From assembly GCF_001570585.1 (NCBI RefSeq), contig NZ_BBXF01000005.1:434001-498000 (forward strand): a DNA stretch of 64,000 nt, written 5' to 3'. Within the stretch, counting starts at the first letter, position 1. Every line of letters begins with the position of its first letter. Below the pieces are notes generated by a model, which saw only the letters and a program-made list of their open reading frames with translations, had not been told where the DNA came from and searched no databases. The translations under genes were made by a program, and so were the position numbers. Below are positions 11,575 through 29,134 of this stretch, one piece after another. The stretch is from Herbidospora daliensis. GTDB taxonomy: Bacteria > Actinomycetota > Actinomycetes > Streptosporangiales > Streptosporangiaceae.

Positions 11575-13647
11575 GTGAGAGCATCCTTCGTCACTCCCGA
11601 CTTCTACATGCCGTACAGGGCCCGGATGAACCCGCACCTGGAACGGGCGCGCGCGCACACCACCGCCTGGGCCCGGGACATGGGCCTGCTGGCGGGCTCG
11701 GGAGTGTGGAGCGAGCACGATTGGGACGGCGCCGACTTCGCCCGGATGTGCGCCTCCAGCCACCCCGACTGCGGCGCCGAGATGCTGGAGCTGGTCACCG
11801 ACTGGTACGTGTGGCTCTTCTTCTACGACGACTTCTTCCTGCACGCGTTCAAGAAGTCCCTCGACCAGACCGGCGCGCGCGCCTACGTGCTCGGCCTGCG
11901 CGCCTTCATGCCGCCGGCGGGCGAGCCGATGCCGGAGCCGGGCGATCCCGTGCAGCGGGGGCTGGCCGACCTGTGGGGGCGCACCGTCGGGGCGCGGTCG
12001 CCGGAGTGGGGCGCGCGGTTCGCCCGCAGCACCCGGGTGGCGCTGGAGGAGTGCCGGTGGGAGCTGGCCAACATCGCCGACGGGCGGGTGGCCAACCCGA
12101 TCGAATACTTGGAGCGGCGCCGCCGGGTCAGCGGCGCGCCCTGGGCGGCCGACCTGATCGAGCACTCCCTCGACGCCGAACTGCCCGCCCGGGTCGCGGC
12201 GGCGCGGCCGATGCGGGTGCTGGCCGACTGTTTCGCCGACGCCGCGGCCCTGCACAACGACATCGTCTCCTACGAGCGGGAGATCCACGACGAGGGCGAG
12301 TTGTCGAACTGCGTGCTGGTCTTCGAGCGCTTCTTCGGGTACGGCGCCCAGCGCGCCGCCGACGCCACCAACGACCTGCTGAGCTCGCGGCTGCACCAGT
12401 TCGAGCACACCGCGCTGACCGAGGTCGGCCCGATGATGGAGGAGCACGCCCTCGACCCGGGCGAACGGCTGCGGGTCGTCGCCTACGTCCGGGGCCTGCA
12501 AGACTGGCTGGCCGGCGACTACGAGTGGCACACCGCCTCCAACCGGGGCAACGGCTCGGGTCCGTCACGGCCCTCGGCCTCCTCCCTGGGCCTGACCCGG
12601 CTGAGGGCCTACGCCCGGGTCCCGGCGTCAGCGCCGACCCCGCTGCCACGCCCCGACCTGCCCGGCCGCCTGCGGCTCAACCCGCACCTGGGCCGGGCCC
12701 GCGACCACTCGGCCCGCTGGTGCGGCCAGATGGGGTTCTACGGCCCGCTCCCCCGGCACCCGGCGCGCGGCCTGTGGAGCGAGCCGGGTGTACGGGCGGC
12801 GGACATCGCCTCCTTCGCGGCGGGCGCCGGCCCCGATCTGGACGAACGGGCGTTGTGCCTGTCGACCGACTGGGCGACCTGGGCCGCCTACGCCGACGAC
12901 TACTGGGTGCGGGTCTTCCTCCACGCGGGCGACCTGCCCGGGGCCCGGCGGCTGCAAGAACGGCTGCCCGCCTTCATGCCGCCGACGCCGGGGACGCCGA
13001 TCCCGGCGCCGGAGAACCCGGTGGAGGCCGGCCTGTCCGACCTGTGGCGGCGGACCGGGCAGCCGGTCCGGAGCCGGGTGCTCGACCTCGTCTCGGTGTT
13101 CATGTGGGAACTGACCACCACCCTGCAGAACCGGCTGCCCGACCCGGTCGACTACATCGAGATGCGCCGCCACGCCTTCGGCGGCCTGACGGGCCCCTCC
13201 CGGCCCGACGACGCGGTGTTCGCCACGCCGACCGTGTCGTCGCTGGAGAGCGCGGCCGTCGACTACGTCACGTTGTGCAACGACCTGTTCTCCTACGCCA
13301 AGGAGACCGGGCGCGACGGCGAACTGTGCAACGGCGTCGCGATCGTCGAGAGGTTCCTCGGCTGCGACCACCGCCAGGCCGCGGGCGTGGTCGGCGACCT
13401 GATGGCGGCCAGGATCACCCAGTTCGAGCACCTCGCCGCCGAGGAACTCCCCGGCCTCCTCGACGACCTCGGCGTCGCCGACGACGTCCGGCACGCGGTC
13501 GGCGCGCACGTCGACCGGCTGCGCGCCTCCATGGCCGCCGCCCTCGACTGGCACCACCGGTCAGGCCGCTACCGCCCGCCGCGCCCGGCCGGACCGACCG
13601 GGCTGGGCACCTCCGCCCTGAACGCGCGCCCGCCGGCGGAGCCGTAA
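11575..13647 (+). CDS. geoA: Geosmin synthase (germacradienol/geosmin synthase, two terpene cyclase domains)
   Basis: A bifunctional sesquiterpene cyclase of 690 residues converting farnesyl diphosphate to germacradienol and then geosmin. The N-terminal domain has the acidic motif D-D-F-F-L at 85-89 (D-D-H-F-L-E in the reference enzymes) and N-D-I-V-S-Y-E-R-E at 228-236 with downstream D-E-G-E-L-S-N. The C-terminal domain has D-D-Y-W at 441-444 and N-D-L-F-S-Y-A-K-E at 569-577. The GTG at 11575 is chosen because the following residues (F-V-T-P-D-F-Y-M-P-Y) match the conserved N terminus of the family. A TACATT hexamer ends six bases upstream, so the transcript is probably leaderless. It is slightly shorter than the usual 720-750 residues, mainly in the linker and C terminus. 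Confidence 0.95.
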   Translation: MRASFVTPDFYMPYRARMNPHLERARAHTTAWARDMGLLAGSGVWSEHDWDGADFARMCASSHPDCGAEMLELVTDWYVWLFFYDDFFLHAFKKSLDQTGARAYVLGLRAFMPPAGEPMPEPGDPVQRGLADLWGRTVGARSPEWGARFARSTRVALEECRWELANIADGRVANPIEYLERRRRVSGAPWAADLIEHSLDAELPARVAAARPMRVLADCFADAAALHNDIVSYEREIHDEGELSNCVLVFERFFGYGAQRAADATNDLLSSRLHQFEHTALTEVGPMMEEHALDPGERLRVVAYVRGLQDWLAGDYEWHTASNRGNGSGPSRPSASSLGLTRLRAYARVPASAPTPLPRPDLPGRLRLNPHLGRARDHSARWCGQMGFYGPLPRHPARGLWSEPGVRAADIASFAAGAGPDLDERALCLSTDWATWAAYADDYWVRVFLHAGDLPGARRLQERLPAFMPPTPGTPIPAPENPVEAGLSDLWRRTGQPVRSRVLDLVSVFMWELTTTLQNRLPDPVDYIEMRRHAFGGLTGPSRPDDAVFATPTVSSLESAAVDYVTLCNDLFSYAKETGRDGELCNGVAIVERFLGCDHRQAAGVVGDLMAARITQFEHLAAEELPGLLDDLGVADDVRHAVGAHVDRLRASMAAALDWHHRSGRYRPPRPAGPTGLGTSALNARPPAEP

Positions 13648-13674: not shown

Positions 13675-14460
13675 TCAGCGGAAGACGGCCATCGGGTGGA
13701 TCACCAGGGTGCGGGTCTGGGCGTTCCAGGCGTCGACCTTGCCCAGGCAGGCGTGCACGCGCGGGGGCGGCTCCTGCGTTTCCGCCGGGATGAAGCCGAT
13801 GTGCACCCGGGCGTCACCGGCGTAGGGGGCCGCGAAGGTCAGGTGCCGGTCGGCTCGGCCGGTGGATTCGAAGTCGCCGGTGATCCAGACGTAGTAGCCG
13901 CGGAGGCTGCTGAGCCGCAACGTGGCGGGCGCCCTGCCGTCGACCCCGAACGCCTCGGCGACGACGCTGCCGGGAGTGATGGTCTTGTCGTCGAGGTCGA
14001 CCTGAATCAGGCGGCGGTGTTTCTCCAAGCGTGTCACGACCGCGCCCAGCACGTTGACCGCGTTCTCCCGGGCGGGGGCTTCCTCCGCCTGGGGAGTGGC
14101 GCCGGGTTCCTCCTCCTTGCCGTATTCGCGGGTGGTGGTCCCCCCGGCCGACACTCCGGCCGTCAGGCCGGGGAGGGGCGCCACCCCCAGGTTCACGGCG
14201 AACGTGCGGATCCTGGTGATCGCCGCGCTTCCCACCCGCCGCCGGCCGGCACGGCCGGTCCCGTGGACGGCCATGACCTGCCGGGTGTCGAGGTAGACGC
14301 AGGAGTAGAGGTCGACGTCGCGGACGGATCGCCGACGACGTTCGCGCCGGTGGACGCGGAACAGATACACCGCCATCGCCGACGACCAGCAGAAGGTGGC
14401 CGTCCAGAGAAGCATCCAGCCCAGATGGACGCTCATCCACAGGTCGTCAGTCACACCCAC
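13675..14460 (-). CDS. Membrane-anchored protein of unknown function (third gene of VWA operon)
   Basis: A 261-residue protein with one N-terminal transmembrane helix (about 8-34) followed by an R-R-E-R-R-R-R stop-transfer cluster. The remainder is a soluble, probably cytoplasmic region with a low-complexity acidic linker near 110-130 and beta-rich sequence. No family is recognised. Its start overlaps the end of the VWA gene by 14 bases, so it is cotranslated with it. The arrangement suggests an accessory or signalling partner of the two exported solute-binding-like proteins. Confidence 0.8.
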   Translation of the reverse strand: MGVTDDLWMSVHLGWMLLWTATFCWSSAMAVYLFRVHRRERRRRSVRDVDLYSCVYLDTRQVMAVHGTGRAGRRRVGSAAITRIRTFAVNLGVAPLPGLTAGVSAGGTTTREYGKEEEPGATPQAEEAPARENAVNVLGAVVTRLEKHRRLIQVDLDDKTITPGSVVAEAFGVDGRAPATLRLSSLRGYYVWITGDFESTGRADRHLTFAAPYAGDARVHIGFIPAETQEPPPRVHACLGKVDAWNAQTRTLVIHPMAVFR

Positions 14461-15983
14461 GGATCTCCTTGAGGGCTGCGAGCAGGGAAGGGCGGTCAGC
14501 GCCGTCGAGGGCCCGGCCGCCGGTCGCCTTCGCCACGCGGCGGAGGTCGGCGCGGTCGGCGGCGCCGAAGGCGATGGTGAAGGTGGGGACGGCCGCCTGG
14601 CGGCGGCGGTGCAGGAAGGCCGTCGCGGAGATGCCGGCGTTGTTGCGGCCGTCGGTCATCAGCACGACGGAGACCCTGTCGCCGTCCTTCAGCAGGCGCG
14701 CCGCCCGGGTGTAGGCGGCGTCGAGGGACGACCAGATCGCGGTCCGGTCGTCGAAGTCGCGCGACGCGAGGTGGCGGAGGAGTGCGTCTCTGCCGCGTGG
14801 GGTGCCGACGGCGAAGGTCCGCTCGTCGAGGACGCGGCCGCCGAAGCGCAGGACCGTGACGTCCTCGTCCTGGGTGAACCGGGCGAAGCGGCCGCTCGAC
14901 GACCGGTCGGCGCCGCCCAGGCCGATGACGGCCGACTTCAGCGCCTTGATCCTGCTCCCGGCCATGGAACCGGAGAAGTCGAGGAGCAGAACGAGCCTGG
15001 GGCGCCCGGGTGTGTCGTAGTTGGTGAGGAGGGCGTCCAGGACCTTCGCCTGGTCGGGGAAGTAGACCGCGTTGCCGAGGGAGGCGGCCAGCCGCGGGTC
15101 CCGCTCGATGTGCGGGGAGAGCGGGCGGCGCAGCGTCTGCCGCATGATCTTCTGCTGTGCGCGCTCGGTCTTCAGCCAGGCCACCACCTTGTCGTAGGCG
15201 GCGCGGCGGGCCGGGTTCAGCAGCAGCAGCGGGTAGTCGGACATCACGGTGCCGTCGCGGGGATAGACCAGTTCGAGCGGCGCCCCGAGCCGCCCGGCGG
15301 CGTTCAGCGACAGCAGCGTGGATTCGTGGGCGATCAGGCCGTCGGTCCGCTCCTGCTCCAGGACGAACTGTTCGACCACGTCGCCGGAGGCCGGCCCGCT
15401 GATGGTGTGGCCGGTGAAGAAGCCGCGCAGCCGGTCGCAGGTGACGTCCTCGGGGCGGAGGGCCGCCCCTGTTCCGGCGGCGGCGGTCGCCACTCCGACG
15501 AGCGCGGCCAGCCCGCTGCCGCTCGTCTTCGGGTCGGCCATCGCGAAGGTGAAGCGCCCCTGCGCGGCGGCGTCGGCGAGGTCGGCCCAGGTGGGTGCGC
15601 GCCCATCAGGTGGACGCAGCCTGGCGGCGGCGCGCGGGGTCAGGCCGACGACGACGGGTGAGACCACGATGCGGGTGCTCAGGGGAGGATCGCCGCGGAA
15701 GCCCGCGTCCTTCAGACGGATGCGGAAATACCGGTCGGACGACGGCCACGCCAGGTCGTACGGGACCTGCCCGGGATCGAGCAGGTCGCCGGGGGCCCCG
15801 GTAGTCCATCGTGAGCTCGACGCCGGTGTCCCGGCGGAGGTCGTCGAGCAGGGGCGCCAGGTCGGCGAGTTCGGCCGCCGCCAGAACGGTGAGCCTGACG
15901 GGCGGCTGGGCGCTCCAGGTGCAGGCGGCGGAGCCGAGGAGCACCCCGCACAGGGCGCGGGCGAGGCGGAGTCGTGCCCTCAC
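14447..15983 (-). CDS. Solute-binding-like lipoprotein with C-terminal VWA domain, frame interrupted once
   Basis: The N-terminal part starts at GTG 15983 with a lipoprotein-like signal (C-G-V-L-L-G-S-A-A-C) and a periplasmic-binding-protein fold (L-T-V-L-A-A-A-E-L, M-D-Y-R-G). At the G5C4 tract 15791-15799 the frame must shift by one base. The continuing frame reads G-D-L-L-D-P-G-Q-V-P-Y-D-L-A-W and runs to the stop at 14447. The C-terminal VWA domain has D-F-S-G-S-M (MIDAS DxSxS), a later T (F-D-D-R-T-A) and D-G-R-N-N. It overlaps the upstream gene by GTGA. The break may be a sequencing error in the GC tract, a true inactivation, or a programmed shift. Without repair only the segment from about 15,667 onward would be called. 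Confidence 0.8.
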
Positions 15984-17236
15984 TGCTCGCCGGTCTCGGC
16001 GCTCTCGGGGCAGCCGATCTTGACGATCATCCGCTCGAGGAGGGGCAGCCGGGGAAGGCGGGCCTGGCTGTCGTCCGACCCGGCCATGACGGGGGTCGGG
16101 ATGCCCTGCTGCTCCAGCAGGTCCCGCAGCTCGGCGCCGGGCCCGACGCCGTGCCGGGGGTAGAGACGGAATCCGAGTTCGGCGGCGCGGGCACGCAGCT
16201 CGGGATCGTTGACGAGCAGGTCGCCGAGCCGTTTTCCCGCGGGCGTCAGCGCGACCAGCTGCGGGAGGGTGAGGTAGCCGTGCTGGGGATACATCAGCAC
16301 CCGTTCCCGGTCCACGTCCGCCGACCGGGCCCGCCGATCGAGCTGGTAGGTGAAGTACTGATGCTCGTAGACGACGACGATCGGCCCTCGTTGCCGTCCG
16401 TCGGGGCCGATGTAGATCTCGAAGATCTCCAGCGAGGGCAGGCCCTGCTCGGTCAGCAACGGTTTGATCTTCTCGGCCACGGCGTCGGCCTCGGCCTCGG
16501 TCTGGACGACCCGGTTGCCGTTCACCACGTAGGCGATCATGCCGAGGTAGGTGCCGCCCGAGTTGCTCCCGCACACGTCGGGCGTGTTGGCGAGCACCCT
16601 GTTCCCGTTCGCTGGGCCGTATCGGGTGATGCCGAGGTCGTTCCAGCTGCGGCCCGACCGGGTCAGGTCGATGAACGCCTTGAGGTCGACTTCGTAGTAG
16701 AGGGAGTCGCTGCCGTCCAGCAGCCGGGCGATCCCGTTGTCCCGCAGGGTCTCGGCGTAGTCGCGGAACGTCGCCAGCACGATCGGGCTGAGAAAGGGAC
16801 TGTACGGATCGGCCTGGAGACGCCGCGCCTGGCGCTTCTCCACGATCATCGTCGCGGCGGGCTGGCCCGAGAGAAAGGCGAAGTCGAAGCCGTCGAGCGA
16901 GTTCACCGCGATCGCGCGGGAGGAGGCGCTCGTCAGGTCGAGCCGGATGCCGTGTTTCATCAGGATCCGCTGGACCGTCAGGTCTTCGAGAAACTCCTTC
17001 TTGGACGCCAATTTGCCGCTGATCACCTCGACCCGGCTCAGGGGCAGCGCCCACTTCTCCTCGCGGACGAGCGTGGCCGCGCCGGTCAGCGGGAGCGCGG
17101 CGAGGGCGGCGAGCCTGATCAGGAAGTTCCGCCGCAGGTAGTAGGGCCGCGGCGGCGGAGGGACGTCCAGCGCGGGTTCGTGACCCGCGTCTCCGGAATC
17201 CGATGCCCGCGACTCACCGCGGAGCATGCTGCACAT
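15980..17236 (-). CDS. Membrane-anchored solute-binding-like protein
   Basis: A 418-residue protein opening the operon. One hydrophobic segment (about 37-55) anchors or exports it. The rest resembles a type 2 periplasmic binding protein: S-G-K-L-A-S-K-K-E-F-L-E-D at the start of the fold, S-S-R-A-I-A-V, and N-G-N-R-V and Y-L-G-M-I-A-Y in the second lobe. No ABC permease or ATPase is encoded nearby, so a classical uptake role is unlikely. The start at 17236 is preferred because GGGGGA lies six bases upstream; a TTG at 17254 lacks such a site. Translation is coupled to the VWA gene by GTGA. Confidence 0.8.
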   Translation of the reverse strand: MCSMLRGESRASDSGDAGHEPALDVPPPPRPYYLRRNFLIRLAALAALPLTGAATLVREEKWALPLSRVEVISGKLASKKEFLEDLTVQRILMKHGIRLDLTSASSRAIAVNSLDGFDFAFLSGQPAATMIVEKRQARRLQADPYSPFLSPIVLATFRDYAETLRDNGIARLLDGSDSLYYEVDLKAFIDLTRSGRSWNDLGITRYGPANGNRVLANTPDVCGSNSGGTYLGMIAYVVNGNRVVQTEAEADAVAEKIKPLLTEQGLPSLEIFEIYIGPDGRQRGPIVVVYEHQYFTYQLDRRARSADVDRERVLMYPQHGYLTLPQLVALTPAGKRLGDLLVNDPELRARAAELGFRLYPRHGVGPGAELRDLLEQQGIPTPVMAGSDDSQARLPRLPLLERMIVKIGCPESAETGEQ

Positions 17237-17463: not shown

Positions 17464-18003
17464 TCAGCTGATGTTGAAGCGCTGGTTCCAGCCGCCGGTG
17501 CACTGCCAGACCTGCAGCTTCGTCCCCGCGCGGTAGCTCGCGCCGACGGCGTCCAGGCAGAGGTTGCCCTGCAGGTTGACGAGCTTGACCCACGGGTCCC
17601 CGGTCACCTGGGGCCGAGCGACCCACCGCTGGTTCCTGCCGCCGCTGCAGCGCCATTGCTGAACCCGGGTGCCGTTCCCGATCGACCCGTCGATCGCCAT
17701 GTCCAGGCACCTGTTGGAGCCGTAGTTGCGCAGCTCGTAGATGCCGGCGAAGTCCGAGGTGGTGTCGGTCCGGACGATCGCCCAGTACTGCGTGTCCCCT
17801 CCAGTCAGCGGCCACAACTCGGGCCGCACCCCGTCTCCCTGGAACGGGACCGGGAGATCGATCACCAGCCGGTTCTCCATGCCGGGCGCCCTCATAACGC
17901 TCACGTACACCCCCCGGAGGTCGGCTGAGGCGGGCCCGATCGGCAGCCCCGCGAACAGCGTGAGCCCCGCCACCGCCACCGTGAGGATCTTCTTGATGCG
18001 CAT
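17464..18003 (-). CDS. Secreted ricin-type beta-trefoil lectin
   Basis: A 179-residue secreted protein with signal peptide (about 1-27, ending A-S-A). The mature part is a RICIN/beta-trefoil domain, shown by repeated Q-x-W motifs (V-Q-Q-W-R-C ... N-Q-R-W and L-Q-V-W-Q-C ... N-Q-R-F) and paired cysteines such as N-R-C-L-D and N-L-C-L-D. A carbohydrate-binding role outside the cell is expected; there is no catalytic domain. GAAGGAG six bases upstream fixes the start at 18003 although the open frame extends further. Confidence 0.88.
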   Translation of the reverse strand: MRIKKILTVAVAGLTLFAGLPIGPASADLRGVYVSVMRAPGMENRLVIDLPVPFQGDGVRPELWPLTGGDTQYWAIVRTDTTSDFAGIYELRNYGSNRCLDMAIDGSIGNGTRVQQWRCSGGRNQRWVARPQVTGDPWVKLVNLQGNLCLDAVGASYRAGTKLQVWQCTGGWNQRFNIS

Positions 18004-18307
18004 TCGTTCTCCTTCGGCTGTGCTGTCCCATGTCGGGCGCCAAGCATGCGAAAGAGCGGTATAGGCCTGGTATAGCCGCAGATGGCGCAAGCCTGGCAGG
18101 GCGGCCTGGGGCCAGTGCACGCCCGAGGCCGCGGGTCGCCCCGGTGGTGATCCATGTCTGTGTCGCCATGGCCGGGACGTCAGGACTTCGAGCGCGCACT
18201 GAAGGCGGTCTAGGTGGATCGGCCTGGAGCTGAGGTTCTCGGAGTCGCACGCCGCGGTTCCGAGACCATGGGACAGCCTGCGCCGCAGGCACTCCATAGG
18301 CCGGTGA
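18004..18307. other. Intergenic gap between lectin and alcohol dehydrogenase operon
   Basis: This contains the lectin promoter region and the 3' end of the ADH operon. A short hairpin GCCTGC/GCAGGC (18276-18290) lies about 18 bases past the operon stop and may help termination. No gene is supported. Confidence 0.5.
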
Positions 18308-19543
18308 CTACCGCTGCTCCGGAGTCAGCACGCGCCGGCTCCGATCCCCCGTCCACGCCGCTTCGAGGATCGCCGTCAAGCTGGCCGTATCGGTCGGCCC
18401 AGGATGGTTCTGGATCAACCGGGTCACCCCGCTCGCCATCTCCGCGAACCGTGGCAGGTCTCCACGATCCACCCCGATGTCCGCCAGCGTCCGGGGAATG
18501 CCGATGTCGGCGAGCAGCTTGTCCAGCCACGTCAGGAACACGTCCGCCGCTTCGGCGTCCGTGGCGTCGGTCACGTCAAGCCCGCACACCCCGGCCAGGA
18601 TGGCCAGCCGGTCGTCGATGGCGTCCCTGGCCGCGTCCAGCGCGTAGGGAAGAAGCAGGCCGACGCCCAATCCATGGGGCGTGTGGGTGGCGGCGCCGAT
18701 CGGGTACTGGAGGGCGTGCGGCGCCCCGTTGCCCGCGTGGGAGAAGGCGATTCCGGCCAGCATCGAGCCGTACGACATGTCCGCGCGCGCGGTCTTGTCG
18801 CTGCCGTTCCTGACCACGTGGGGCAGGCTGCGGGCGATGCGTTCCGCGGCCTGGAGGGCGTAGTGGTCGGTGATCGGGTTGCGGCCGAGGAAGACCTGTT
18901 CGACCGGGTCGCGGGGGCCGTGGGGGCGGGGGCGGGCGGTGTAGCTCTCGACCGCGTGGCAGAACGCGTCGATGCCGGAGTAGGCGGTGACGGTCGCGGG
19001 GCAGCTGTAGGTGAGTTCGGGGTCGACGATGGCGAAGTCGGGCACGATGTGGACGCTGGAGACGCCCACCTTCAGCGCCCGGTCGGGGTCGGTCAGCACC
19101 GAGACGGGGGTGAGCTCCGAACCGGTGCCCGACGTCGTCGGGACCGCGACCAGGGGGATCGTCGGGCCGGGGACCTTCGCCTCGCCGTAGTAGTCGCGCG
19201 GGGTGCCGCCGTGGCGGCGGATGACGCCGACGATCTTGGCGAGGTCGATCACGGTGCCGCCGCCGATGGCGAGGATGACGTCGGCGTCCACCTCCGCGGC
19301 GACCGAGACGGCCAGGGCGACGTCGGAAAGCGGCACGTCCGGCGTCGCGTCGGCGAACACCCCGACGACCTCGACCTTCTCCCGCACGGCGGCCACGATC
19401 CCGGCCACGCCCGGCTGGCCCAGCAGGACGCGGTCGGTCACGACCAGGACGCGCGAGCCGCACTCGGCCACCACGCGCGGGATGTTCTGCGCGACGCCTT
19501 CGCCCACGATCAGCTGGCGTGGTCCGCGGACGGTCTCAAGCAT
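18308..19543 (-). CDS. Iron-containing (group III) alcohol dehydrogenase
   Basis: A 411-residue NAD(P)-dependent enzyme oxidising an alcohol to an aldehyde or ketone. The dinucleotide region carries A-I-G-G-G-T-V-I-D, the substrate region V-P-T-T-S-G-T-G-S-E, and the metal ligands sit in G-I-D-A-F-C-H-A-V-E-S, H-A-G-N-G-A-P-H and T-P-H-G-L-G-V-G. It is the last gene of the minus-strand operon, 42 bases after the aldehyde dehydrogenase gene. Placed behind a polyol/sugar-type ABC transporter, it probably performs the first oxidation of the imported compound. Confidence 0.92.
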   Translation of the reverse strand: MLETVRGPRQLIVGEGVAQNIPRVVAECGSRVLVVTDRVLLGQPGVAGIVAAVREKVEVVGVFADATPDVPLSDVALAVSVAAEVDADVILAIGGGTVIDLAKIVGVIRRHGGTPRDYYGEAKVPGPTIPLVAVPTTSGTGSELTPVSVLTDPDRALKVGVSSVHIVPDFAIVDPELTYSCPATVTAYSGIDAFCHAVESYTARPRPHGPRDPVEQVFLGRNPITDHYALQAAERIARSLPHVVRNGSDKTARADMSYGSMLAGIAFSHAGNGAPHALQYPIGAATHTPHGLGVGLLLPYALDAARDAIDDRLAILAGVCGLDVTDATDAEAADVFLTWLDKLLADIGIPRTLADIGVDRGDLPRFAEMASGVTRLIQNHPGPTDTASLTAILEAAWTGDRSRRVLTPEQR

Positions 19544-19585
19544 GTCAGGGCCTCTCTGGAACGTCGGCGGTGATGTGGAGGACGG

Positions 19586-21046
19586 TCACGGGAGGTCGAT
19601 GGCCGCGTAGGTGACGTCGAGGTACTCGAGGATGCCCTCGTGCGAGCCCTCCTTGCCGATGCCCGACTGCTTCACGCCTCCGAACGGAGCAGACGGGTCG
19701 GAGATGAGGCCGCGGTTGACGCCGACCATGCCGGTCTCCAGGCCCTCGGCGTACCGGAGCGCGCGCTGGAGGTCGCGGGTGAAGACGTAGCCGACCAGGC
19801 CGTGCTCGGTGTCGTTGGCCTTCGCGAGCACCTCGTCGTCGGAGGTGAACGAGATGATCGGCGCCACCGGGCCGAAGATCTCCTCCTCCAGCATCCGGGC
19901 GTCCTCCGGCACGTCGACGAGCACGGTGGGGGGGTAGAAGTGACCCGGCCCCTCCGGGCGCTGCCCGCCGACCACGACCCGGGCGCCCCGCTCGACCGCG
20001 TCGGCGACGAGTTCGTCGATCTTGGCGACCGAGGGCTCGTCGATCAGCGCGCCGACGTCCACGCCGTCGTCGAGGCCGTGGCCGACCGAGAGCGCGGCCA
20101 TCCGCGCGGCGAAGCGGGCGGTGAACTCCTCGCGGACCGGCTCCTCGACGTAGATGCGGTTGGCGGCGATGCAGGACTCCCCGATGTTGCGCATCTTGGC
20201 CACCATGGCGCCGTCGACCGCGACGTCCAGGTCGGCGTCGGCGCACACGATCAGGGCCGCGTTGCCGCCCAGTTCCATGGAGGTGCGCAGCACGTTGTCG
20301 GCCGCCTGCCGCAGCAGCACGCGCCCGACCTCGGTGGAGCCGGTGAAGGAGAGCTTGCGGGTCCGGCGGTCGGCCAGCAGCGCCGAGACCACCTGGCCGG
20401 AGCGTTTGGTCGTCACGACGTTGACGACGCCCGGGGGAACGCCGACCTCTTCCATGATGCGGGCCAGGAACAACATGGTGAGGGGCGTCTGGGCGGCCGG
20501 CTTGGTGATCGTCGTGCAGCCCGCCGCCAGCGCGGGGGCGATCTTGCGGGCGCCCATGGCCAGCGGGAAGTTCCACGGCGTCACGAAGACGCACGGCCCG
20601 ACCGGCTTCGGCACGGTGAGGATGCGGTATCCGCCGCGGGGAGCGGTGTTGTAGCGCCCCTCGACGCGCACCGCCTCCTCGGCGAACCAGCGGAAGAACT
20701 CGGCGCCGTAGCCCACCTCCGCGCGGGCCTCGGCGAGCGGCTTGCCCATCTCCAGGGTGATCAGCCGGGCGACCTCCTCGGAGCGCTCGGTCAGCGCCCG
20801 GTACGTCGCCATCAGCAGGTCCGACCGTTCGCGCGGCGGCGTCGCCGCCCAGTCGGCCATCGCCTTGCTCGCCGCGTCCAGGGCGGCGAGGCCGTCCTCG
20901 ACGCTCGCGTCCGCCACCTCGGCGATGGTCTTGCCGGTGGCCGGGTCTTCGACGGGGAAGGTGGCTCCGCTGGAGGCGTCGCGCCAGGCGTCGCCGATCC
21001 GGAGCCGCCGGTGTTCGGGGGCCAAAACGTTCATGGGGTCGTTCAT
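19586..21046 (-). CDS. NAD(P)-dependent succinate-semialdehyde-type aldehyde dehydrogenase
   Basis: A 486-residue ALDH family enzyme. The cofactor and catalytic blocks are present: T-P-W-N-F-P-L-A, F-T-G-S-T-E-V-G, M-E-L-G-G-N-A (general base Glu) and N-I-G-E-S-C-I-A-A-N-R (catalytic Cys). Overall it is closest to the GabD/SSADH subgroup, but the true substrate should be the aldehyde made by the neighbouring iron ADH. GGAGG at eight bases supports the start at 21046. It is in the operon with the ABC transporter, 77 bases after the second ATPase gene. Confidence 0.9.
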   Translation of the reverse strand: MNDPMNVLAPEHRRLRIGDAWRDASSGATFPVEDPATGKTIAEVADASVEDGLAALDAASKAMADWAATPPRERSDLLMATYRALTERSEEVARLITLEMGKPLAEARAEVGYGAEFFRWFAEEAVRVEGRYNTAPRGGYRILTVPKPVGPCVFVTPWNFPLAMGARKIAPALAAGCTTITKPAAQTPLTMLFLARIMEEVGVPPGVVNVVTTKRSGQVVSALLADRRTRKLSFTGSTEVGRVLLRQAADNVLRTSMELGGNAALIVCADADLDVAVDGAMVAKMRNIGESCIAANRIYVEEPVREEFTARFAARMAALSVGHGLDDGVDVGALIDEPSVAKIDELVADAVERGARVVVGGQRPEGPGHFYPPTVLVDVPEDARMLEEEIFGPVAPIISFTSDDEVLAKANDTEHGLVGYVFTRDLQRALRYAEGLETGMVGVNRGLISDPSAPFGGVKQSGIGKEGSHEGILEYLDVTYAAIDLP

Positions 21047-21123
21047 GGGGTCGCCTCCGGCGAAGTTCTCGGTGATGACAGGTCGAGGCGGCCGGGCGGG
21101 GCGACGTCGCCGCCCCCGCCCGG

Positions 21124-22199
21124 CTACCTGCCGGCTTCGGACAGCGCCAGCCCGGTGCCCGCATCGAACAGGTGCGCCCGGTCCAGGTCGACCGTGACCT
21201 GCAGCCGCTCGCCCGGCGTGCCGGTGACGGTGGGCCGGGCCTTGACCTTGATGATCTCCGTCCCCACTTGGACGTCGACCAGCGTCCGGTCGCCGAGCGG
21301 CTCCAGGCCGTACAGCTCACCCGACAACGACGCGTCGCCGCGCCGCTCGACGGACAGGTCCTCCGACCGCAGGCCCAGCAGCAGCGGACGGCCGTCCTCG
21401 GCGGTGGCCCAGCGGGGGCGCGGCAGCGTCCAGCCGTCCTTGCCGACCAGGCGGTCGCCCTCCGCGTGGCAGGCGAGCAGGCTGATGGACGGGCTCCCGA
21501 CGAAGCCGGCGACCCACTTGTTGGCCGGCCGCTCGTACACCTCGGTCGGCGTGCCGACCTGCTGCACCTTCCCCTCCTTGATGACCGCGACCTGGTCGGC
21601 CATCGACAGGGCCTCGACCTGGTCGTTGGTCACGTAGATGAAGGTGCCGCCGAGGCTGCGGTGGATGCGGGTGAGCTCGGTCCGCATCTCGACGCGGAGC
21701 TTGAGGTCGAGGTTGGTCAGCGGCTCGTCCATGAGGAACGCGCGCGGGTTGCGGACCAGCGCCCGCGCCAGGGCGACGCGCTGCATCTCACCGCCGGACA
21801 TCTGCGCGGGACGGCGCTGGAGCAGGCGCTCGATGTGCAGCAGGTTCGACATCTTCTCGACGGCGGCGGCGATCTCGCTCGACGAGCGGCGGCGGGCCCG
21901 CAGCGGCGAGGCGATGTTCTCGTACGCCGTCAGCCGAGGGTAGAGCGCGTAACTCTGGAAGACCATGGCCAGGTCGCGCGCGGCCGGGGGGTCGGCGGTC
22001 GCGTCCTTGCCGTCGAGGTGCACCGATCCGGCGTCGAGCTTCTCCAGGCCGGCGATGGCCCGCAGGGTCGTCGTCTTGCCCGCGCCGGAGGGCCCGAGCA
22101 CCACGAAGAACGAGCCGTCCGGCACGTCCAGCGTCACCCCGTCGAGGGCCTGGACCTTGCCGAAGGACTTGCTCAGCCCCTGCACTGACACGGTTCCCA

Positions 22200-22200
<1 letters not shown>
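21124..22200 (-). CDS. ABC transporter ATP-binding protein with altered H-loop
   Basis: A 358-residue MalK/UgpC-type ATPase. Walker A is G-P-S-G-A-G-K-T-T, the Q-loop M-V-F-Q-S-Y-A-L-Y-P, signature M-S-G-G-E-M-Q-R, Walker B F-L-M-D-E-P-L-T-N-L-D, and a C-terminal OB-like regulatory domain is present. The switch histidine is replaced: the motif reads Y-V-T-N-D-Q-V-E-A with Asn192. The second ATPase (22,200-23,267) keeps the His, so the pair probably forms an asymmetric heterodimer with one weakened site. Its ATG overlaps the upstream stop by one base. Confidence 0.92.
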
Positions 22201-23266
<1,066 letters not shown>

Positions 23267-23267
<1 letters not shown>

Positions 23268-24178
23268 CAGCGTCGCACCGCCCCGAGGGTCACGCCGGCG
23301 ACGAGGTGCTTGCGCACCAGGTAGGAGAAGACGAGCACCGGCAGGGCGAACACGATGGAGGCGGCGGCCACCAGGCCCCAGTCCACGGTGGTTCCGCCGA
23401 TGAGGCCCGCGATGGCGGGTGGCGCCGTCCGCACGGCGTCGCTGGAGGTGAGGAAGATGGCGAACACGAACTCGTTCCACGAGAAGATGAGGGCGAAGAC
23501 CGCCGTCGCGGCGATGCCGGGCAGGAGCAGCGGAAGGGTGAACTTCCAGAACGCCTGCAGGCGGGTGTAGCCGTCGAGCATGGCGGCGTCCTCGTATTCC
23601 GCGGGCACCTCGTCGACGAAGCCCTTCATCATCCAGATCGTGAACGGGACGTTGAAGGCGGTGTAGATGAGGATCAGGCCGAGCTTGGTGTCGAACAGGC
23701 CGACCTGGCGGTACATGAGGAAGATCGGGATCACGACCACGACGGGCGGCATGAACCGGGTCGACAGGATGAAGAACAGCTGGTCCTTCTTGGCCTTCAC
23801 CGAGAAGCGCGAGTAGGCCCAGGCCGCCGGCACGCCCAGCACGGTGGCCAGCACCGTGGAGACCCCGGCGACGATGACGGAGTTCAGGAACGAGCCCGAC
23901 AGGGTCGAGGGGCCGCCGCCGGAGGCGACGAACACGTCCTTGAAGTGGTCCAGGGTGATCGTGAAGTCGAAGAACTTGGCCGGGATCGCGTAGACGTCCC
24001 GGTTCTCCTTGATGGACGTCTCGATCATCCACAACACCGGGAAGAGCATCACGGCGGCCAGCACGGCCAGGACCGCGACCTCGATCGCGACGCGGCCCCG
24101 GCCGCGACGGCGGCGCCCGGGGGGCCGTTGGTCCGGGGCAGGACCTGCTGACACGGCCTCGTTGACAGAGACGGCCAT
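23267..24178 (-). CDS. Carbohydrate/polyol ABC transporter permease (MalG/UgpE type)
   Basis: A 303-residue inner-membrane protein with six predicted helices. The cytoplasmic coupling loop is E-Y-E-D-A-A-M-L-D-G-Y-T-R-L-Q-A-F, the EAA motif of CUT1 permeases. The start at 24178 overlaps the upstream permease stop. It pairs with the product of 24,178-25,125 to form the channel. Confidence 0.92.
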
Positions 24179-25125
24179 CAGTCCTCCTTGAGCTTGTTCA
24201 GGTAGCGCATGTAGAGCTGCGCGAGGACGATGACGATGAGGACCATGAGGATCCCGTACGCCGAGGCGGTCCCGGTGTTGAAGCCCAGGAACGCGACCTT
24301 GTAGACGTGGAACGACAACGTCTCGGTGGAGACCCCCGGACCTCCGCTGGTGAGGATGTAGACCAGGTCGAACAGCCGGAAGGCCTCGATGGCCCTGAAC
24401 AGCACCGCGATGAGGAGCAGCGGCCACACCAGCGGGAGGGTGATGGTGCGGAAGCGGAACCACTCCGACGCCCGGTCGATCGAGGCGGCCTCGTACAGGT
24501 ACTTGGGCACCGCGGTGAGGCCGGCGAGCGCGATGAGCATGATGAACGGCGTCCACTGCCAGGTGTCGACGACGATCAGGGAGATCAGCGCCGTGTTCTG
24601 CTTGGTCAGCCACTCCACCTGGCCCAGGCCGAGCGAGCCGAGCATGCTGTTGATCACGCCGAACTGCGCGTCGAGCATGAACCGCCAGAACAGCCCGACC
24701 ACGACCGGCGAGAGCATCATCGGGACCAGGAAGAGCGTGGTGAGCACGCCCCGCCCGCGCACCCGCCGCGAGATCAGGTAGGCGATGGAGAAGCCCAGCA
24801 CGGTCTGCAGGGTGACCGCGCCGACCACGTACAGCAGCGTCGTGAAGGCCCTCATGTGGACCTGCGCCGACGTCAGGATGGCGGTGAAGTTCTCGAACCA
24901 GACGAACGTGGCCGGCCCGCCGCGGGTGGCCGAGTAGTCGGTGAACGACAGGTACAGCGCCCACAGCAGCGGAAACACCGACATCGCGAGCAGCAGCAGC
25001 AATGCGGGCGAGATGAAGGCCACCGTGAGCCAGCGATCGCTCAGGTGGCGGGACCGCCCCGGTGCGGGCGGCGTCGAGGACGCCTCCCGCACCGGGTGGT
25101 CCGTCAGAGAGACGGGGTCACTCAC
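24178..25125 (-). CDS. Carbohydrate/polyol ABC transporter permease (MalF/UgpA type)
   Basis: A 315-residue membrane protein with six helices and an EAA-type loop (Y-L-Y-E-A-A-S-I-D-R-A-S-E-W). It starts at GTG 25125, overlapping the binding-protein stop by GTGA. It belongs to the same CUT1 family as MalF/UgpA; substrate specificity cannot be read from the permease. Confidence 0.92.
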   Translation of the reverse strand: MSDPVSLTDHPVREASSTPPAPGRSRHLSDRWLTVAFISPALLLLLAMSVFPLLWALYLSFTDYSATRGGPATFVWFENFTAILTSAQVHMRAFTTLLYVVGAVTLQTVLGFSIAYLISRRVRGRGVLTTLFLVPMMLSPVVVGLFWRFMLDAQFGVINSMLGSLGLGQVEWLTKQNTALISLIVVDTWQWTPFIMLIALAGLTAVPKYLYEAASIDRASEWFRFRTITLPLVWPLLLIAVLFRAIEAFRLFDLVYILTSGGPGVSTETLSFHVYKVAFLGFNTGTASAYGILMVLIVIVLAQLYMRYLNKLKED

Positions 25126-26519
25126 AGTCCGCCGCCGCCCTTTTTGCCGGCGGAGTCGAGCACGGCCTGCTGTTCCTTGGCGATGTCGTTCAGCGCCGTC
25201 TTCGGGTCCTTGGCGCCGTTGAGGGCCGCGTTCACGTTGGTGTTCTCGATGTCGATGAGACGCGCGTACTCAGGCACGTTCCACATGTCCCGCATCCGCG
25301 AGACCGAGTCGGCGTACACCTTGTTGAACGGCCCGGCGTTGAGGAACTCCGGCGACTGCAGGGCGTCGGTGCGCGCCGGCACGCCGCCGGCCGCGGCCCA
25401 CTTCTTCTGGACGTCGGCCTGCTCGAACCACTTCATGAAGTTCAGCGCCTCGGCCTGCTTCTCCGGGGAGGAGTAGGCGGACACGTGCATGCCCATGCCG
25501 CCGAGCGGCACCAGGTCGGTCTTCTGCTTCGGCAGGGTGGCGAAGCCGAGCTTGCCGAGGATCTCCTCGCGCGTCTTGCCGAGCGTCGACTGCTCGGGGT
25601 CGAGCAGGCCGCCGCTCGCGGCGATCCAGTTGAACGCGATGCACGCCTTGCCCTGGGCGACGGCCGCGTTCACCTCGTCGATGAACCAGTTGCCGGAGCC
25701 CGCGGCGGTCAGCGGCTTCATCTTGTTGACCAGGACGTCCATCGCCTCCTGGCCGGCGGCGTCGTTGATGACGCCCTCGATCTTGCGCGACTTGGAGTCC
25801 CAGAGGTTGCCGCCGTAGACGCCGTTGACCGTGTTGTAGGTGACGGCCGCGGCGTCGGAGCCGTTGGCCTGGTGGAAGGCCAGGCCGCTGACGCCGGGGT
25901 TCTCGGTCTGGCACTTCTGGGCGGCCGCGATCATCTCGTCCCAGGTCGCCGGCGGCGTCTCGCCGATCAGGTCCTTGCGGTAGATCATCGTCCAGGTGTC
26001 GCCGAGCAGCGGCAGCCCGTAGAGGCTGGCGTTCTCGTCGCGCTGGCCGGTCTCGGCCTGGGGGAACTGGCCGTAGGCCGCCAGGAGGTAGGGGTTGTAG
26101 GCGTCGACCTCGATGTTCTTCTTGACGAAGTCGGTGATGTCGAGGATGTTGCCGTTGGTCACGGCCTCACCGATGTGCTGCGAGTCGAGGATGGGGATGT
26201 CGAAGTCGGTCTTGCGCGCCGCGAACTGGGTGAACATCGCGTCGTGCCAGTTGGCGTTCGGCACCACGTTGACCTTGATGGTCACGTTCGACCGCTGCTT
26301 GGTGTACTCGGCGTTCGCGAAGGCCTCCAGGGCCTTGGCGGGGGGCCAGTCGAACCAGATGAAGCTGAGGGTCAACGGGTCGTTGGTGAGCGCGGGGATG
26401 TCGGCCGGCGCCTTGGGCGCGCTCGCGTTCGTGCCCTCGTCCCCGCCGCAGGCCACCACCGTCGTGGCCACCAACATGACCGCCGTCGCCAGCAGTCCTA
26501 TTCGCTTGGGATACCGCAT
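25122..26519 (-). CDS. Extracellular solute-binding lipoprotein of the ABC transporter
   Basis: A 465-residue family 1 binding lipoprotein with lipobox V-V-A-C-G. It captures the substrate outside the membrane and delivers it to the permeases. Typical blocks include the N-terminal F-I-W-F-D-W-P-P, Y-G-L-P-L-L-G-D-T-W-T-M-I-Y-R-K-D and V-P-A-R near the C terminus. It is the first gene of the seven-gene operon and is divergent from the GntR regulator. A family 1 binding protein combined with alcohol and aldehyde dehydrogenases points to a polyol or alcohol rather than a hexose polymer, but this is inference. Confidence 0.92.
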   Translation of the reverse strand: MRYPKRIGLLATAVMLVATTVVACGGDEGTNASAPKAPADIPALTNDPLTLSFIWFDWPPAKALEAFANAEYTKQRSNVTIKVNVVPNANWHDAMFTQFAARKTDFDIPILDSQHIGEAVTNGNILDITDFVKKNIEVDAYNPYLLAAYGQFPQAETGQRDENASLYGLPLLGDTWTMIYRKDLIGETPPATWDEMIAAAQKCQTENPGVSGLAFHQANGSDAAAVTYNTVNGVYGGNLWDSKSRKIEGVINDAAGQEAMDVLVNKMKPLTAAGSGNWFIDEVNAAVAQGKACIAFNWIAASGGLLDPEQSTLGKTREEILGKLGFATLPKQKTDLVPLGGMGMHVSAYSSPEKQAEALNFMKWFEQADVQKKWAAAGGVPARTDALQSPEFLNAGPFNKVYADSVSRMRDMWNVPEYARLIDIENTNVNAALNGAKDPKTALNDIAKEQQAVLDSAGKKGGGGL

Positions 26520-26909
26520 CTTCTTGCCTGCTTTCTGGGGGGTGGGGACCTCTAGAGCCTTGCTGCATGCGTCGCCGAGCAGTGGCTGGGTGGTTCTGGC
26601 GTGTGGCCGGCTGCCGCAGGGGCTGACCCGCAGACCGGCGTCACGAGTACGCCGCGACGTGTTGGGGCTGGGAGCAGTCGGGACGTCCTCCGGTTCCCGG
26701 GTGGCAGGGCAGCCAGGAGGATGTCGAGCATGCTCATGGGAGCTCCAACTGATCGAGCAGAGCGATGGCGGGCTGTTCCGCATTTGGGTGAAGGATGGGT
26801 GGCATCCATCACCTTTCCTATACGATCCGAGGTGGGCGTCAGCATCCCTCAGCGTGGCGACCGATGTCAACAGGTTCCCGAAGGCGCAAGGAAAGGACCT
26901 CACGTCACG
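26520..26909. promoter_or_regulatory. Divergent control region of transporter operon and GntR gene
   Basis: About 390 bases without a gene between the binding-protein ATG and the GntR ATG. The reverse complement of 26,817-26,830 matches, at 11 of 14 positions, the sequence at 27,687-27,700 that overlaps a strong palindrome, giving a shared core CGGATCG-n-AT-n-GG. A small inverted repeat GGATG/CATCC lies at 26,792-26,806. These are candidate GntR sites. Confidence 0.45.
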
Positions 26910-27653
26910 ATGGACGACGAAGTGATGATCGCGCGGCGCCATGGGGCCATGACCGGCGGAAAGCCGCCGGGAAGATCGCGCGGCAGGCTCGCCGACGAGG
27001 TGTACGACACGCTGCTCGGCCAGCTGATGTCGCTGCGGATCGAACCCGGTTCCCGGGTCACGATCGACGTCCTGGCCCGGGAGCTGGGGGTTTCGCAGAC
27101 GCCGATCCGAGACGCCCTGAACCGCATGGAGGCCGAGGGGCTGGTGGTGCGGGTGCCCCACGCCGGCTACCGCATCCCGCCGCAGATCACCCGGCACCGG
27201 TTCGAGGACATGCTCGAACTGCGGCTGCTCCTGGAACCGGCGGCGGCGCGCCGGGCCGCCGAGCGCGCCACCTCCGAACAGGTGGCCGGGCTGCGGCGGA
27301 TGCTGGAGGAGATGGCGGAGCTGGAAGGGGGTGACGGGCCCATGGCCTACGGCGCCTTCGGGCTGCGTGACGCCGCCTTCCACGATCTGGTCGCCCTGAG
27401 CGCGGAGAACCAGGTCATCCGCGAGGCCCTCGCGCGCCTGCACACGCACGTGCACCTGTTCCGGCTGCTGCACGACACGCAGGTCACCCACCTGGCCATG
27501 GCCGAGCACGAGGACGTGCTGGCCGCCATCGCCGCGCGCGACCCCGACGCCGCCGCCTACGCCATGCGCCGGCACATCCTGCGGTCGGGCGAGCGGTTCC
27601 GCCGGTTGTTCGACGAGGCTGACGGCTCGCAAGGAATGGCGGCAAAGGCTTGA
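26910..27653 (+). CDS. GntR/FadR-type regulator with FCD domain
   Basis: A 247-residue regulator. The winged helix-turn-helix (about 28-90) reads L-A-R-E-L-G-V-S-Q-T-P-I-R-D-A-L-N-R-M-E. The FCD effector domain has the metal-ligand pattern D and H in R-D-A-A-F-H-D-L, H in A-E-H-E-D-V and H in M-R-R-H-I, so a metal plus a carboxylate ligand is expected. ATG at 26910 is preceded by AGGAAAGGA. It lies divergent from the transporter operon and upstream of the DJ-1/hydrolase pair and probably controls both. Confidence 0.88.
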   Translation: MDDEVMIARRHGAMTGGKPPGRSRGRLADEVYDTLLGQLMSLRIEPGSRVTIDVLARELGVSQTPIRDALNRMEAEGLVVRVPHAGYRIPPQITRHRFEDMLELRLLLEPAAARRAAERATSEQVAGLRRMLEEMAELEGGDGPMAYGAFGLRDAAFHDLVALSAENQVIREALARLHTHVHLFRLLHDTQVTHLAMAEHEDVLAAIAARDPDAAAYAMRRHILRSGERFRRLFDEADGSQGMAAKA

Positions 27654-27687
27654 CGGGCGGGCCGGGTCGAGGAATGCTAACTCAACC

Positions 27688-27708
27688 GGATCGGATTGGA
27701 TCCGATCC
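27688..27708. promoter_or_regulatory. 8-5-8 perfect palindrome, probable GntR operator
   Basis: GGATCGGA (27688-27695) and TCCGATCC (27701-27708) are perfect inverted repeats around a 5-base spacer, 33 bases before the DJ-1 start codon. Its left half with flanking bases is echoed in the divergent region near 26,820. Confidence 0.65.
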
Positions 27709-27740
27709 ACCTCACCCGTCCCAGATGCGAGGAGAAGTAG

Positions 27741-28301
27741 GTGCCCAGAGCGCTGCTTCTGACCGGCGACGCCGCCGAAGAGCTCGACACCATGTATCCC
27801 TACTATCGCGTTCAGGAGGGCGGCTGGGACGTCGACGTCTCGTCACGGACGTTGCGTGACGTTCAGCTGGTCATCCACGAGTTCGACCCCAACTCCGACG
27901 CCTACGTCGAGAAGAACGGCCGCAAGCTGCCGGTCGACGTGCCGTGGGCCGAGGTCGACGTCGAGCGCTACGACGCCCTGATCATCCCCGGCGGCCGCGC
28001 CCCCGAGTGGATCCGGGTCGACGCCGACGTCCGGCGCATCACCGAGCACTTCTTCGCGCGCAACCTCCCCATCGCGCTGGTGTGCCACGGCGCGCAGGTG
28101 CCGGCCGTGTACGGGCTGCTGAAGGGCCGCAAGACGGCCTGCTTCCCGCCCATCACCGGCGACATGGAGAACGCGGGCGCGACCGTCATCGACGCCCCCG
28201 ACGTCATCGACGGAAACCTGGTCTCCTGCCGCGGCTGGCCGGACATGCCCCAGTTCGGCCGGGCGATGATGGACGTCTTCTCCAAGTCCCTGTCGGCATG
28301 A
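27741..28301 (+). CDS. DJ-1/PfpI family protein
   Basis: A 186-residue protein of the class I glutamine amidotransferase-like fold. The nucleophile elbow is L-V-C-H-G-A-Q with Cys115, and the fold hallmark P-G-G-R-A-P-E-W lies near residue 80. Members act as glyoxalases, deglycases, hydratases or chaperones; the exact activity is unknown. Start is GTG with AGGAGAAG upstream. It overlaps the alpha/beta hydrolase by ATGA, so both products likely act in the same pathway, possibly on a reactive aldehyde from the neighbouring dehydrogenases. Confidence 0.9.
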   Translation: MPRALLLTGDAAEELDTMYPYYRVQEGGWDVDVSSRTLRDVQLVIHEFDPNSDAYVEKNGRKLPVDVPWAEVDVERYDALIIPGGRAPEWIRVDADVRRITEHFFARNLPIALVCHGAQVPAVYGLLKGRKTACFPPITGDMENAGATVIDAPDVIDGNLVSCRGWPDMPQFGRAMMDVFSKSLSA

Positions 28302-29134
28302 GCACCCCGGAGCTGTCGACTGTGACGGCACCTGAGACCGTCACAGTCGGCGGCTCCCCCGTCCAGGTCATGGACGCCGGCACCGGCCCCGCGGTGCTGA
28401 TGCTGCACGGATCCGGACCCGGTACGACGGGCTCCGGCGCCTGGGCCGCCACCGCCCAGGCGCTGGGCGCCTCCTTCCGCCTGGTGGCCCCCGACCAGGC
28501 GGGCTTCGGCCGCACCCCGCTCCCGGTGGGCTCCCGGGGCGGGCTCGAGGTGTGGACCGACCAGGCCGCCGGCCTGATGGACGCCCTCGGCATCGAGCGG
28601 TACGCCGTCGTCGGCCACTCCATGGGCGGCGCCGTCGCGCTGTCGCTGGCCGCCGCGCGCCCCGAGCAGGTCACCCACGTCGTGGCGGTCGCCACGATGG
28701 GCGCCCCCGGGGCGCCGCTGTCCCCCGACCTCGACGCGATCTGGGCCGCCCCCGCCGGCCCGCTCGGGGCGCAGGACATGCTCAGCCGTCTCGTCCTCGA
28801 CCAGGCGCTGGTGACCGACCAGGCCGTCGCCGCCCGCGCGGCCGCGATGGAGGCGGGCGCCGACGCGTTCGCGCGGTTGTTCCCGCCGCCCCGGGCCCGC
28901 TGGTCCGACGACCTCACCGTCTCGGCGGGGGCGCTGGCCGGGATCCAGGCGCCGGTGCTGCTCGTCCACGGCGCGGAAGACCGGGTCACCCCGCTCAGGG
29001 ACACGGCGCTGCCCCTGCTCGACCACCTGGCCGACGTGCGGCTGCACGTGTTCGGCCGATGCGGGCACGTGCCGGCGCTCGAGCACCCGCACGAGTTCAG
29101 GCGACTGCTGTCGTCCTTCCTCGGCTCACACTGA
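28298..29134 (+). CDS. Alpha/beta hydrolase resembling meta-cleavage product hydrolases
   Basis: A 278-residue hydrolase. The oxyanion block is L-H-G-S-G-P-G-T-T, the nucleophile elbow G-H-S-M-G-G, the acid H-G-A-E-D-R-V-T-P and the catalytic His in G-R-C-G-H-V-P-A-L-E-H-P. The H-G-S-G-P-G block is typical of the BphD/XylF type of C-C bond hydrolases, but ester hydrolases share it. It is translationally coupled to the DJ-1 gene. Confidence 0.88.
   Translation: MSTPELSTVTAPETVTVGGSPVQVMDAGTGPAVLMLHGSGPGTTGSGAWAATAQALGASFRLVAPDQAGFGRTPLPVGSRGGLEVWTDQAAGLMDALGIERYAVVGHSMGGAVALSLAAARPEQVTHVVAVATMGAPGAPLSPDLDAIWAAPAGPLGAQDMLSRLVLDQALVTDQAVAARAAAMEAGADAFARLFPPPRARWSDDLTVSAGALAGIQAPVLLVHGAEDRVTPLRDTALPLLDHLADVRLHVFGRCGHVPALEHPHEFRRLLSSFLGSH

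Follow-up and report, generated by a model that had tools for sequence, protein, structure and literature searches.

What might a bacterium do with two exported proteins of the periplasmic-binding-protein (PBP) type that are encoded together with a membrane-anchored partner, in an operon of their own that holds no transporter genes? This question is raised by a 64,000-nucleotide stretch of the Herbidospora daliensis genome (RefSeq assembly GCF_001570585.1, contig NZ_BBXF01000005.1, positions 434,001 to 498,000; hereafter the window), in which the reading frames show three genes on the minus strand, here called A, B and C, with a stop/start overlap at each junction. A first-pass annotation of the nucleotide sequence had described this trio as an orphan operon of solute-binding and von Willebrand factor type A (VWA) proteins, serving ligand sensing or surface assembly rather than uptake. 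All three genes are present and overlap on the minus strand as proposed there, but B is not a single frame. Our reading, to which we assign a probability of about 0.4, is that A-B-C, a variant, lacking TelA, of a more common A-TelA-B-D operon, forms a self-contained transmembrane module with a sensing or effector function, and that it does not serve uptake.

Conservation and co-occurrence of the trio

Among 19 C-carrying loci with complete surroundings, 17 have the order A-B-C and two are A-C. The A-B-C genomes are those of the window, H. cretacea, Actinomadura rudentiformis, A. craniellae, A. macra, a Thermomonosporaceae metagenome-assembled genome (in which a second contig carries B-C reaching the contig end), Streptomyces endocoffeicus, S. 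rugosispiralis, Streptomyces sp. S465, Kibdelosporangium persicum and seven others (G102, G107, G257, G371, G431, G476 and G517); one locus (L047, 32%) was left out of the C-linked count. The gene order, whose conservation the first-pass annotation had wanted checked, is thus kept outside the strain (17 genomes, with that of the window), and loss of order was not found. Gene content, order, co-occurrence and the homology of A and B, here and in the next section, are matters of observation. The two A-C pairs lie on Streptomyces megaplasmids; they are 97.5% identical over 2.2 kb, their other surroundings differ, and B is absent within the 13 kb examined, a distance that describes the neighborhood and not whole genomes. 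Having no B nearby, these A-C loci point to A and C as the core pair, with B as a modulator.

The trio is rare, and its A proteins form a group of their own. C was found in 7 of 394 genomes of the class, and a second search of the 394 returned strong A matches (at least 395 bits) in the same seven, all other A proteins scoring 202 bits or less. In the family set of 200 genomes, which overlaps the class set, A occurs in 75, six of them with a strong match (at least 578 bits), while none of the remainder exceeds 204 bits. This score gap is partly built in, as the profile was made from C-linked A proteins, but the A tree is independent of it. In this tree of 61 A proteins, the 19 C-linked ones constitute one clade (support 100/100) apart from the other 42, which are not C-linked and not all TelA-linked either (nine of the 15 at loci L157-L171, and the Deinococcus protein, have no TelA nearby). 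Within the genus, a close A is present in 2/7 genomes and a paralogue at 36-38% in 7/7.

Kinship with TelA-type operons

The genome of the window also holds an A'-TelA-B'-D operon, on contig C3, containing the sole TelA detected by a genome search, and A matches its own-genome paralogue at 37% (E 1.1e-33). Operons of this kind are more common than the trio and encode a hypothetical protein, the toxic anion resistance protein TelA (PF05816), a protein with substrate-binding-protein (SBP) and VWA domains, and a small membrane protein. They share with the trio a homologous A, a B homologous over its length (39%, H. cretacea copy) and the same exported SBP/VWA plan, whereas the trio lacks TelA and D, has C in the slot after B and has an A of a separate clade. 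At the 24 best weaker A loci of the family search, TelA lies directly downstream in 23. Fifteen further A loci from the class search (L157-L171) comprise six with TelA, seven with B directly after A and two with neither in the DNA examined; six of the seven A-then-B loci were examined further, with TelA in 0/6 and D in 5/6. Such A-B-D arrangements (on a Deinococcus taeanensis plasmid and in G271, G509, G072, G424 and G461) resemble the trio in that B follows A directly, with no TelA in the DNA examined, but they end in D instead of C and their A falls outside the C-linked clade. At C-linked loci, TelA was not found in 18 other loci and one partial contig, with one TelA as the query, and D gave no match. 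Taken together, the paralogue operon, the variant loci and the A clade lead us to conclude, on sequence grounds, that the trio is a form of the TelA/SBP-VWA operon lacking TelA, and that it belongs, as one lineage, to a wider family whose inside parts can be exchanged. The earlier statement that tellurium-type genes are absent therefore holds for the genes adjoining the operon but not for the genome, where TelA accompanies an A-B paralogue pair (TelA alone was searched genome-wide). Likewise, the view that no characterized system has this composition is weakened by the sister relation of the trio to the more common A-TelA-B-D operon.

A-TelA-B-D is also carried by Sphaerotilus and Variovorax plasmids. 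In the plasmid of Variovorax sp. SRS16 (L150, 1524-10901), the nearby genes include one for flotillin and one whose product is annotated as an OB-fold-containing protein, and the A-B-D genes of the D. taeanensis plasmid (L149, 5911-9117), with no TelA nearby, have transposase genes a few kb off. The D-like proteins are small proteins of the membrane; a scan of two from actinomycetes gave no Pfam family over the cut-off. The possibility that C is a relative of D was rejected, as the comparison of C with the D profile gave E 0.19 and a probability of 0.3%. At three further loci (L178, L179 and L180), an A-type PBP follows an N-terminal extension that is alike by eye in all three, ending like VPILVERIVRREL; no B, TelA, C or D was found within the 9-11 kb examined there. 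Another comparison is offered by the FtsZ-like-1/VWA operons, which (Makarova and Koonin 2010, PMC2875224) are, like the trio, multi-gene, with VWA proteins, some of them exported, and an unassigned role. These operons are defined by an FtsZ-like protein, and none is encoded among the three genes of the trio, no search having been aimed at one.

Predicted architecture of the three proteins

The coordinates of the genes and their parts are collected in Table 1. A scan for promoters found no candidate site, and one for terminators gave two terminator-like sites where chance alone would give 0.8; the start of C overlaps the end of B.

Table 1. Coordinates of the operon, its parts and the features discussed with it
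Feature	Location	Strand	Description	Basis
Gene A	15980-17236	minus	418 aa; N-terminal signal anchor at about residues 39-57, then predicted extracytoplasmic PBP fold	Frame; hydropathy and charges; weak model; relation to SBP part of B
Gene B, whole	14447-15983	minus	SBP + VWA	
Gene B, first part	15801-15983	minus	GTG start at 15983 overlapping the stop of A; export signal with Cys (LLGSAAC); start of SBP domain	
Gene B, frame-change site	15791-15800	minus	One base	
Gene B, main part	14447-15790	minus	Rest of SBP_bac_11, about 15775-15143; VWA domain with MIDAS DxSxS/T/D, about 14995-14519	
Gene C	13675-14460	minus	259-261 aa depending on the start chosen; one transmembrane helix, then a basic stretch and a soluble domain that looks remotely like DUF6414, with a beta-rich C-terminal half	
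Upstream block	18308-29092	minus	Iron-containing alcohol dehydrogenase, aldehyde dehydrogenase, two MalK-type ATPases, permease, SBP, protein without assigned function	
A-C pair	L147 5950-7996		Streptomyces megaplasmid	
A-C pair	L151 5815-7861		Streptomyces megaplasmid	

The topology, the folds and the DUF6414 relation described in this section are predictions. A has no match to Pfam, NCBIfam or PADLOC models, and a sequence search of the PDB with its profile gave no match at E up to 1. Its predicted structure is weak (mean pLDDT 57), the models of A and C having been made from small alignments of 13 and 11 rows; the 50 PDB matches listed for it are mostly substrate-binding proteins, the best with E 5e-4 and a TM-score of 0.36, and none of the 50 has a TM-score to the query above 0.37. 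In profile comparison, 228 columns of A align with the SBP part of B (E 6.3e-6, probability 85%). The charge before the transmembrane helix is more basic than that after it in 13 of the 14 sequences read (of 19), a pattern by which the domain is predicted to lie outside the membrane, and A is accordingly modeled as a membrane-anchored PBP.

For B, both Pfam domains are recognized (SBP_bac_11, E 1e-11; VWA, E 6e-10), and a PDB sequence search with its profile matched six chains, every time within the VWA part. The metal-ion-dependent adhesion site (MIDAS) of the window copy is intact, with DFSGS, TAIW and LMTDG read directly. Judged by the motif set that we take to mark this site (the DxSxS, T and D metal-site residues), DxSxS and T are present in 14/14 homologues read and the D motif, as patterned, in 13/14. 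The first-pass description of a PBP-fold pair, one member with a VWA MIDAS, is hence borne out for B by Pfam and the DFSGS motif, and is favored for A by the profile comparison and the weak model. A loose lipobox pattern matched 11/14 B proteins; the window piece remained unmatched despite a Cys after LLGSAA, and lipidation of B is possible.

The B start and its first 61 codons are in one frame and the last 447 codons, free of stops, in another, owing to a one-base change. In H. cretacea, B is a single open frame across this site, for which reason programmed frameshifting was ruled out. Between the two Herbidospora species, the ratio of nonsynonymous to synonymous substitution rates (dN/dS; Nei-Gojobori method, NG86) is 0.15 for B before the change, 0.23 for B after it, 0.21 for A and 0.49 for C. 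These values, with the single frame in H. cretacea, mean that the change is either a sequencing error or recent.

C has one hydrophobic helix and no Pfam match, in agreement with the membrane-anchored third protein first noted. It looks like a remote relative of DUF6414 (PF19952), sharing a YLD motif near the start, LGKV and a PxAIFR-like end, but it carries an extra transmembrane helix, and ordinary membership was ruled out by its position below the Pfam cut-off. A global-mode comparison, tried after the local one, gave a probability of 83% for DUF6414 and 0.0% for three other profiles. In 17/17 C sequences read (of 20), the part following the helix carries a more positive net charge than the part preceding it, from which the soluble domain is predicted to be cytoplasmic. 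With the C model, Foldseek matched the C-terminal half to many OB-fold-like barrels, as judged by their titles (best E 2.2e-3, none at 0.001 or better), and an OB-like fold is suggested for this half. With the C profile, a PDB sequence search found nothing at E up to 1, and the weak matches of the DUF6414 profile to Hsp70/DnaK (E no better than 0.022) were taken as chance. Two weak C matches (G134 and G044) were dropped because the genes called in their surroundings included no homologue of A, B or C.

Neighborhood and mobility

Flanking genes differ between most loci, with S. endocoffeicus, S. rugosispiralis and S465 sharing neighbors. The window operon lies in a variable stretch adjoining a genus-conserved block, and the H. 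cretacea operon lies on the other side of this block. Synonymous divergence (dS) between the two Herbidospora operons is 0.50-0.76, above the 0.08-0.36 of five neighboring block genes, values that are rough because of codon bias (in the lowest of the five genes, dN exceeds dS). Actinomadura is divided in the A tree, which places A. rudentiformis with Herbidospora, and A. craniellae and A. macra with Kibdelosporangium. A-B-C is a mobile, conserved set.

A Ricin-B-type lectin gene (window 17464-18165, minus strand) lies between the operon and the conserved block and also adjoins the iron-containing alcohol dehydrogenase gene in G004. On the other side lies a two-domain "geosmin synthase" (11590-13647, plus strand), to which the first-pass annotation had drawn attention. 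By sequence, it is a divergent paralogue, at about 43-48% to copies in six other genus genomes (best alignments), and the window genome has a further copy of that kind (G000:C3:932371-934362). As the H. cretacea operon is located elsewhere, this link means little, and the neighbor was given no meaning. A phage or virus origin was also rejected for want of matches: five proteins tried had none in PHROG, one B had none in phages, and A had no confirmed match in viral contigs.

Proposed mechanism

Ligand sensing, signaling and a physiological role are what we infer from this arrangement. In the proposed mechanism, A, as an anchored PBP, and B, as an exported SBP-VWA protein and possibly a lipoprotein, would form a pair outside the membrane. 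A ligand in the A and B clefts, together with a divalent metal at the VWA MIDAS, would alter A-B association, and this change would pass through the single transmembrane helices of A and C to the DUF6414-like cytoplasmic domain of C, which may then act on a cytoplasmic partner. C occupies the last-gene slot that D holds in TelA-type operons.

Because of the kinship with TelA operons, tolerance of envelope stress or toxic compounds is the likely use, by analogy. TelA of Listeria is described as having a stress phenotype but no known mechanism (PMC12791056); disruption of the gene raised susceptibility to tellurite as well as nisin (Collins et al. 2010, as cited in PMC12791056). In B. subtilis, xpaC-yaaN, YaaN being the TelA homologue, is listed as part of the sigma-W core regulon (PMC3498285), and sub-membrane structures formed by TelA and the VWA protein TerF have been proposed (PMC7824862).

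Weighing the alternatives

Several points weigh against this module. The stress role, itself an argument by analogy, rests on TelA kinship, yet TelA is missing from the trio, and we know of no ligand, phenotype or interaction for A-B-C. B does not always adjoin A and C, as the A-C loci show, and its frame change may mean that the window copy is decaying, although dN/dS is low on both sides. The DUF6414 relation is also weak: only 2/6 C sequences matched the Pfam model at all (best E 0.05, cut-off not reached), and the local default profile comparison gave E 5.8e-4 with a probability of 29%. The predicted C structure has a mean pLDDT of 60, both models being of low confidence. Transporter genes are not entirely absent from the surroundings either. 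An ATP-binding cassette (ABC) importer gene set (two ATPases, permease and SBP) starts at 21124, about 4 kb upstream of the operon, and the major facilitator superfamily accounts for 4/97 neighbor proteins among the families listed (25 of 115; the 97 proteins are 118 minus 23 left out, all eight of the window among them, plus two added).

The importer set bears directly on the view that A and B are ordinary scavenging binding proteins for an unlinked or nearby ABC importer, with C as an accessory membrane protein. A and B are PBP-like, as are the binding proteins of SBP-dependent importers, and an ABC ATPase also lies about 2 kb upstream of A at the Kibdelosporangium locus, where the gene before it leads us to take it as an exporter component. 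However, the block from iron-containing alcohol dehydrogenase to permease is present in 6/6 other genus genomes, against a close A in 2/7. The SBP gene of the block was seen in 5/6, lying for G004 beyond the stretch examined, and the window importer set is genus-core. At 17 of 18 further C-linked loci, the DNA examined showed no gene for an importer ATPase or permease, in a search with one ATPase and one permease as queries that could miss a diverged permease. Thus, the frequent transporter linkage in relatives that would have spoken for uptake was not found, and the remark that no ABC permease or ATPase is present is true of the operon but overlooks the set about 4 kb away. The trio further departs from such importers in having no permease or ATPase in the operon, an SBP fused to VWA and a partner with a predicted cytoplasmic domain, and A accompanies C or TelA instead; scavenging therefore seems improbable to us. 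Surface assembly or adhesion, with the VWA domain of B holding wall or matrix ligands and A and C as scaffolds, would suit the conserved MIDAS and the export signal of B. We give it little credence, as A-C units occur without B nearby and a cytoplasmic C domain, if the predicted topology is right, would have no evident place in it. The early preference for sensing or surface assembly over uptake is accordingly upheld by the conserved order and the 17/18 loci without importer genes, and tempered by the existence of kin, the absence of B beside A and C at some loci and its frame change.

The patchy spread (6/200 and 7/394 genomes, in overlapping sets), the partial disagreement of the A tree with taxonomy, the megaplasmid copies and the variable flanks could instead indicate a mobile competition or immunity module, directed at antibiotics, bacteriocins or phages and built from TelA-operon parts. 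PADLOC models yielded no families for A, B or C at E up to 1, and together with the negative PHROG, phage and viral-contig searches this makes such a module quite unlikely. The operon of the window genome might also be a recent pseudogene remnant, as the one-base change in B and the faster evolution of C would allow. Against this stand the 447 stop-free codons after the change, the low dN/dS of A and both B parts and the chance that the change is a sequencing error, and we regard a remnant as doubtful, if less easily dismissed. The transmembrane sensing or effector module is the reading that we prefer. A bolder form of it, speculative and on balance unlikely, is that the trio represents an undescribed actinomycete transmembrane receptor class, in which two outside PBP-type parts, one with a metal-switched VWA domain, would drive, through a single span, a DUF6414-like domain in the cytoplasm. 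The unit contains neither a kinase nor a sigma factor or permease. A-C would be the minimal form of this receptor, which would spread as a mobile cassette, uncoupling the receptor of the TelA operon from TelA.

Significance

A literature search that covered few subscription papers found no paper on DUF6414, on TelA or toxic anion resistance with VWA, or on the annotation phrase of B. Many actinomycete TelA genes are tied to a fixed outside pair, A and B, and a related pair can take a different inside partner, C. Set side by side, the variants A-TelA-B-D, A-B-D, A-B-C and A-C offer a direct genetic route to what the outside pair senses and to the job of its inside partner. Such a comparison would also place a DUF6414-like domain in a biological context for the first time.

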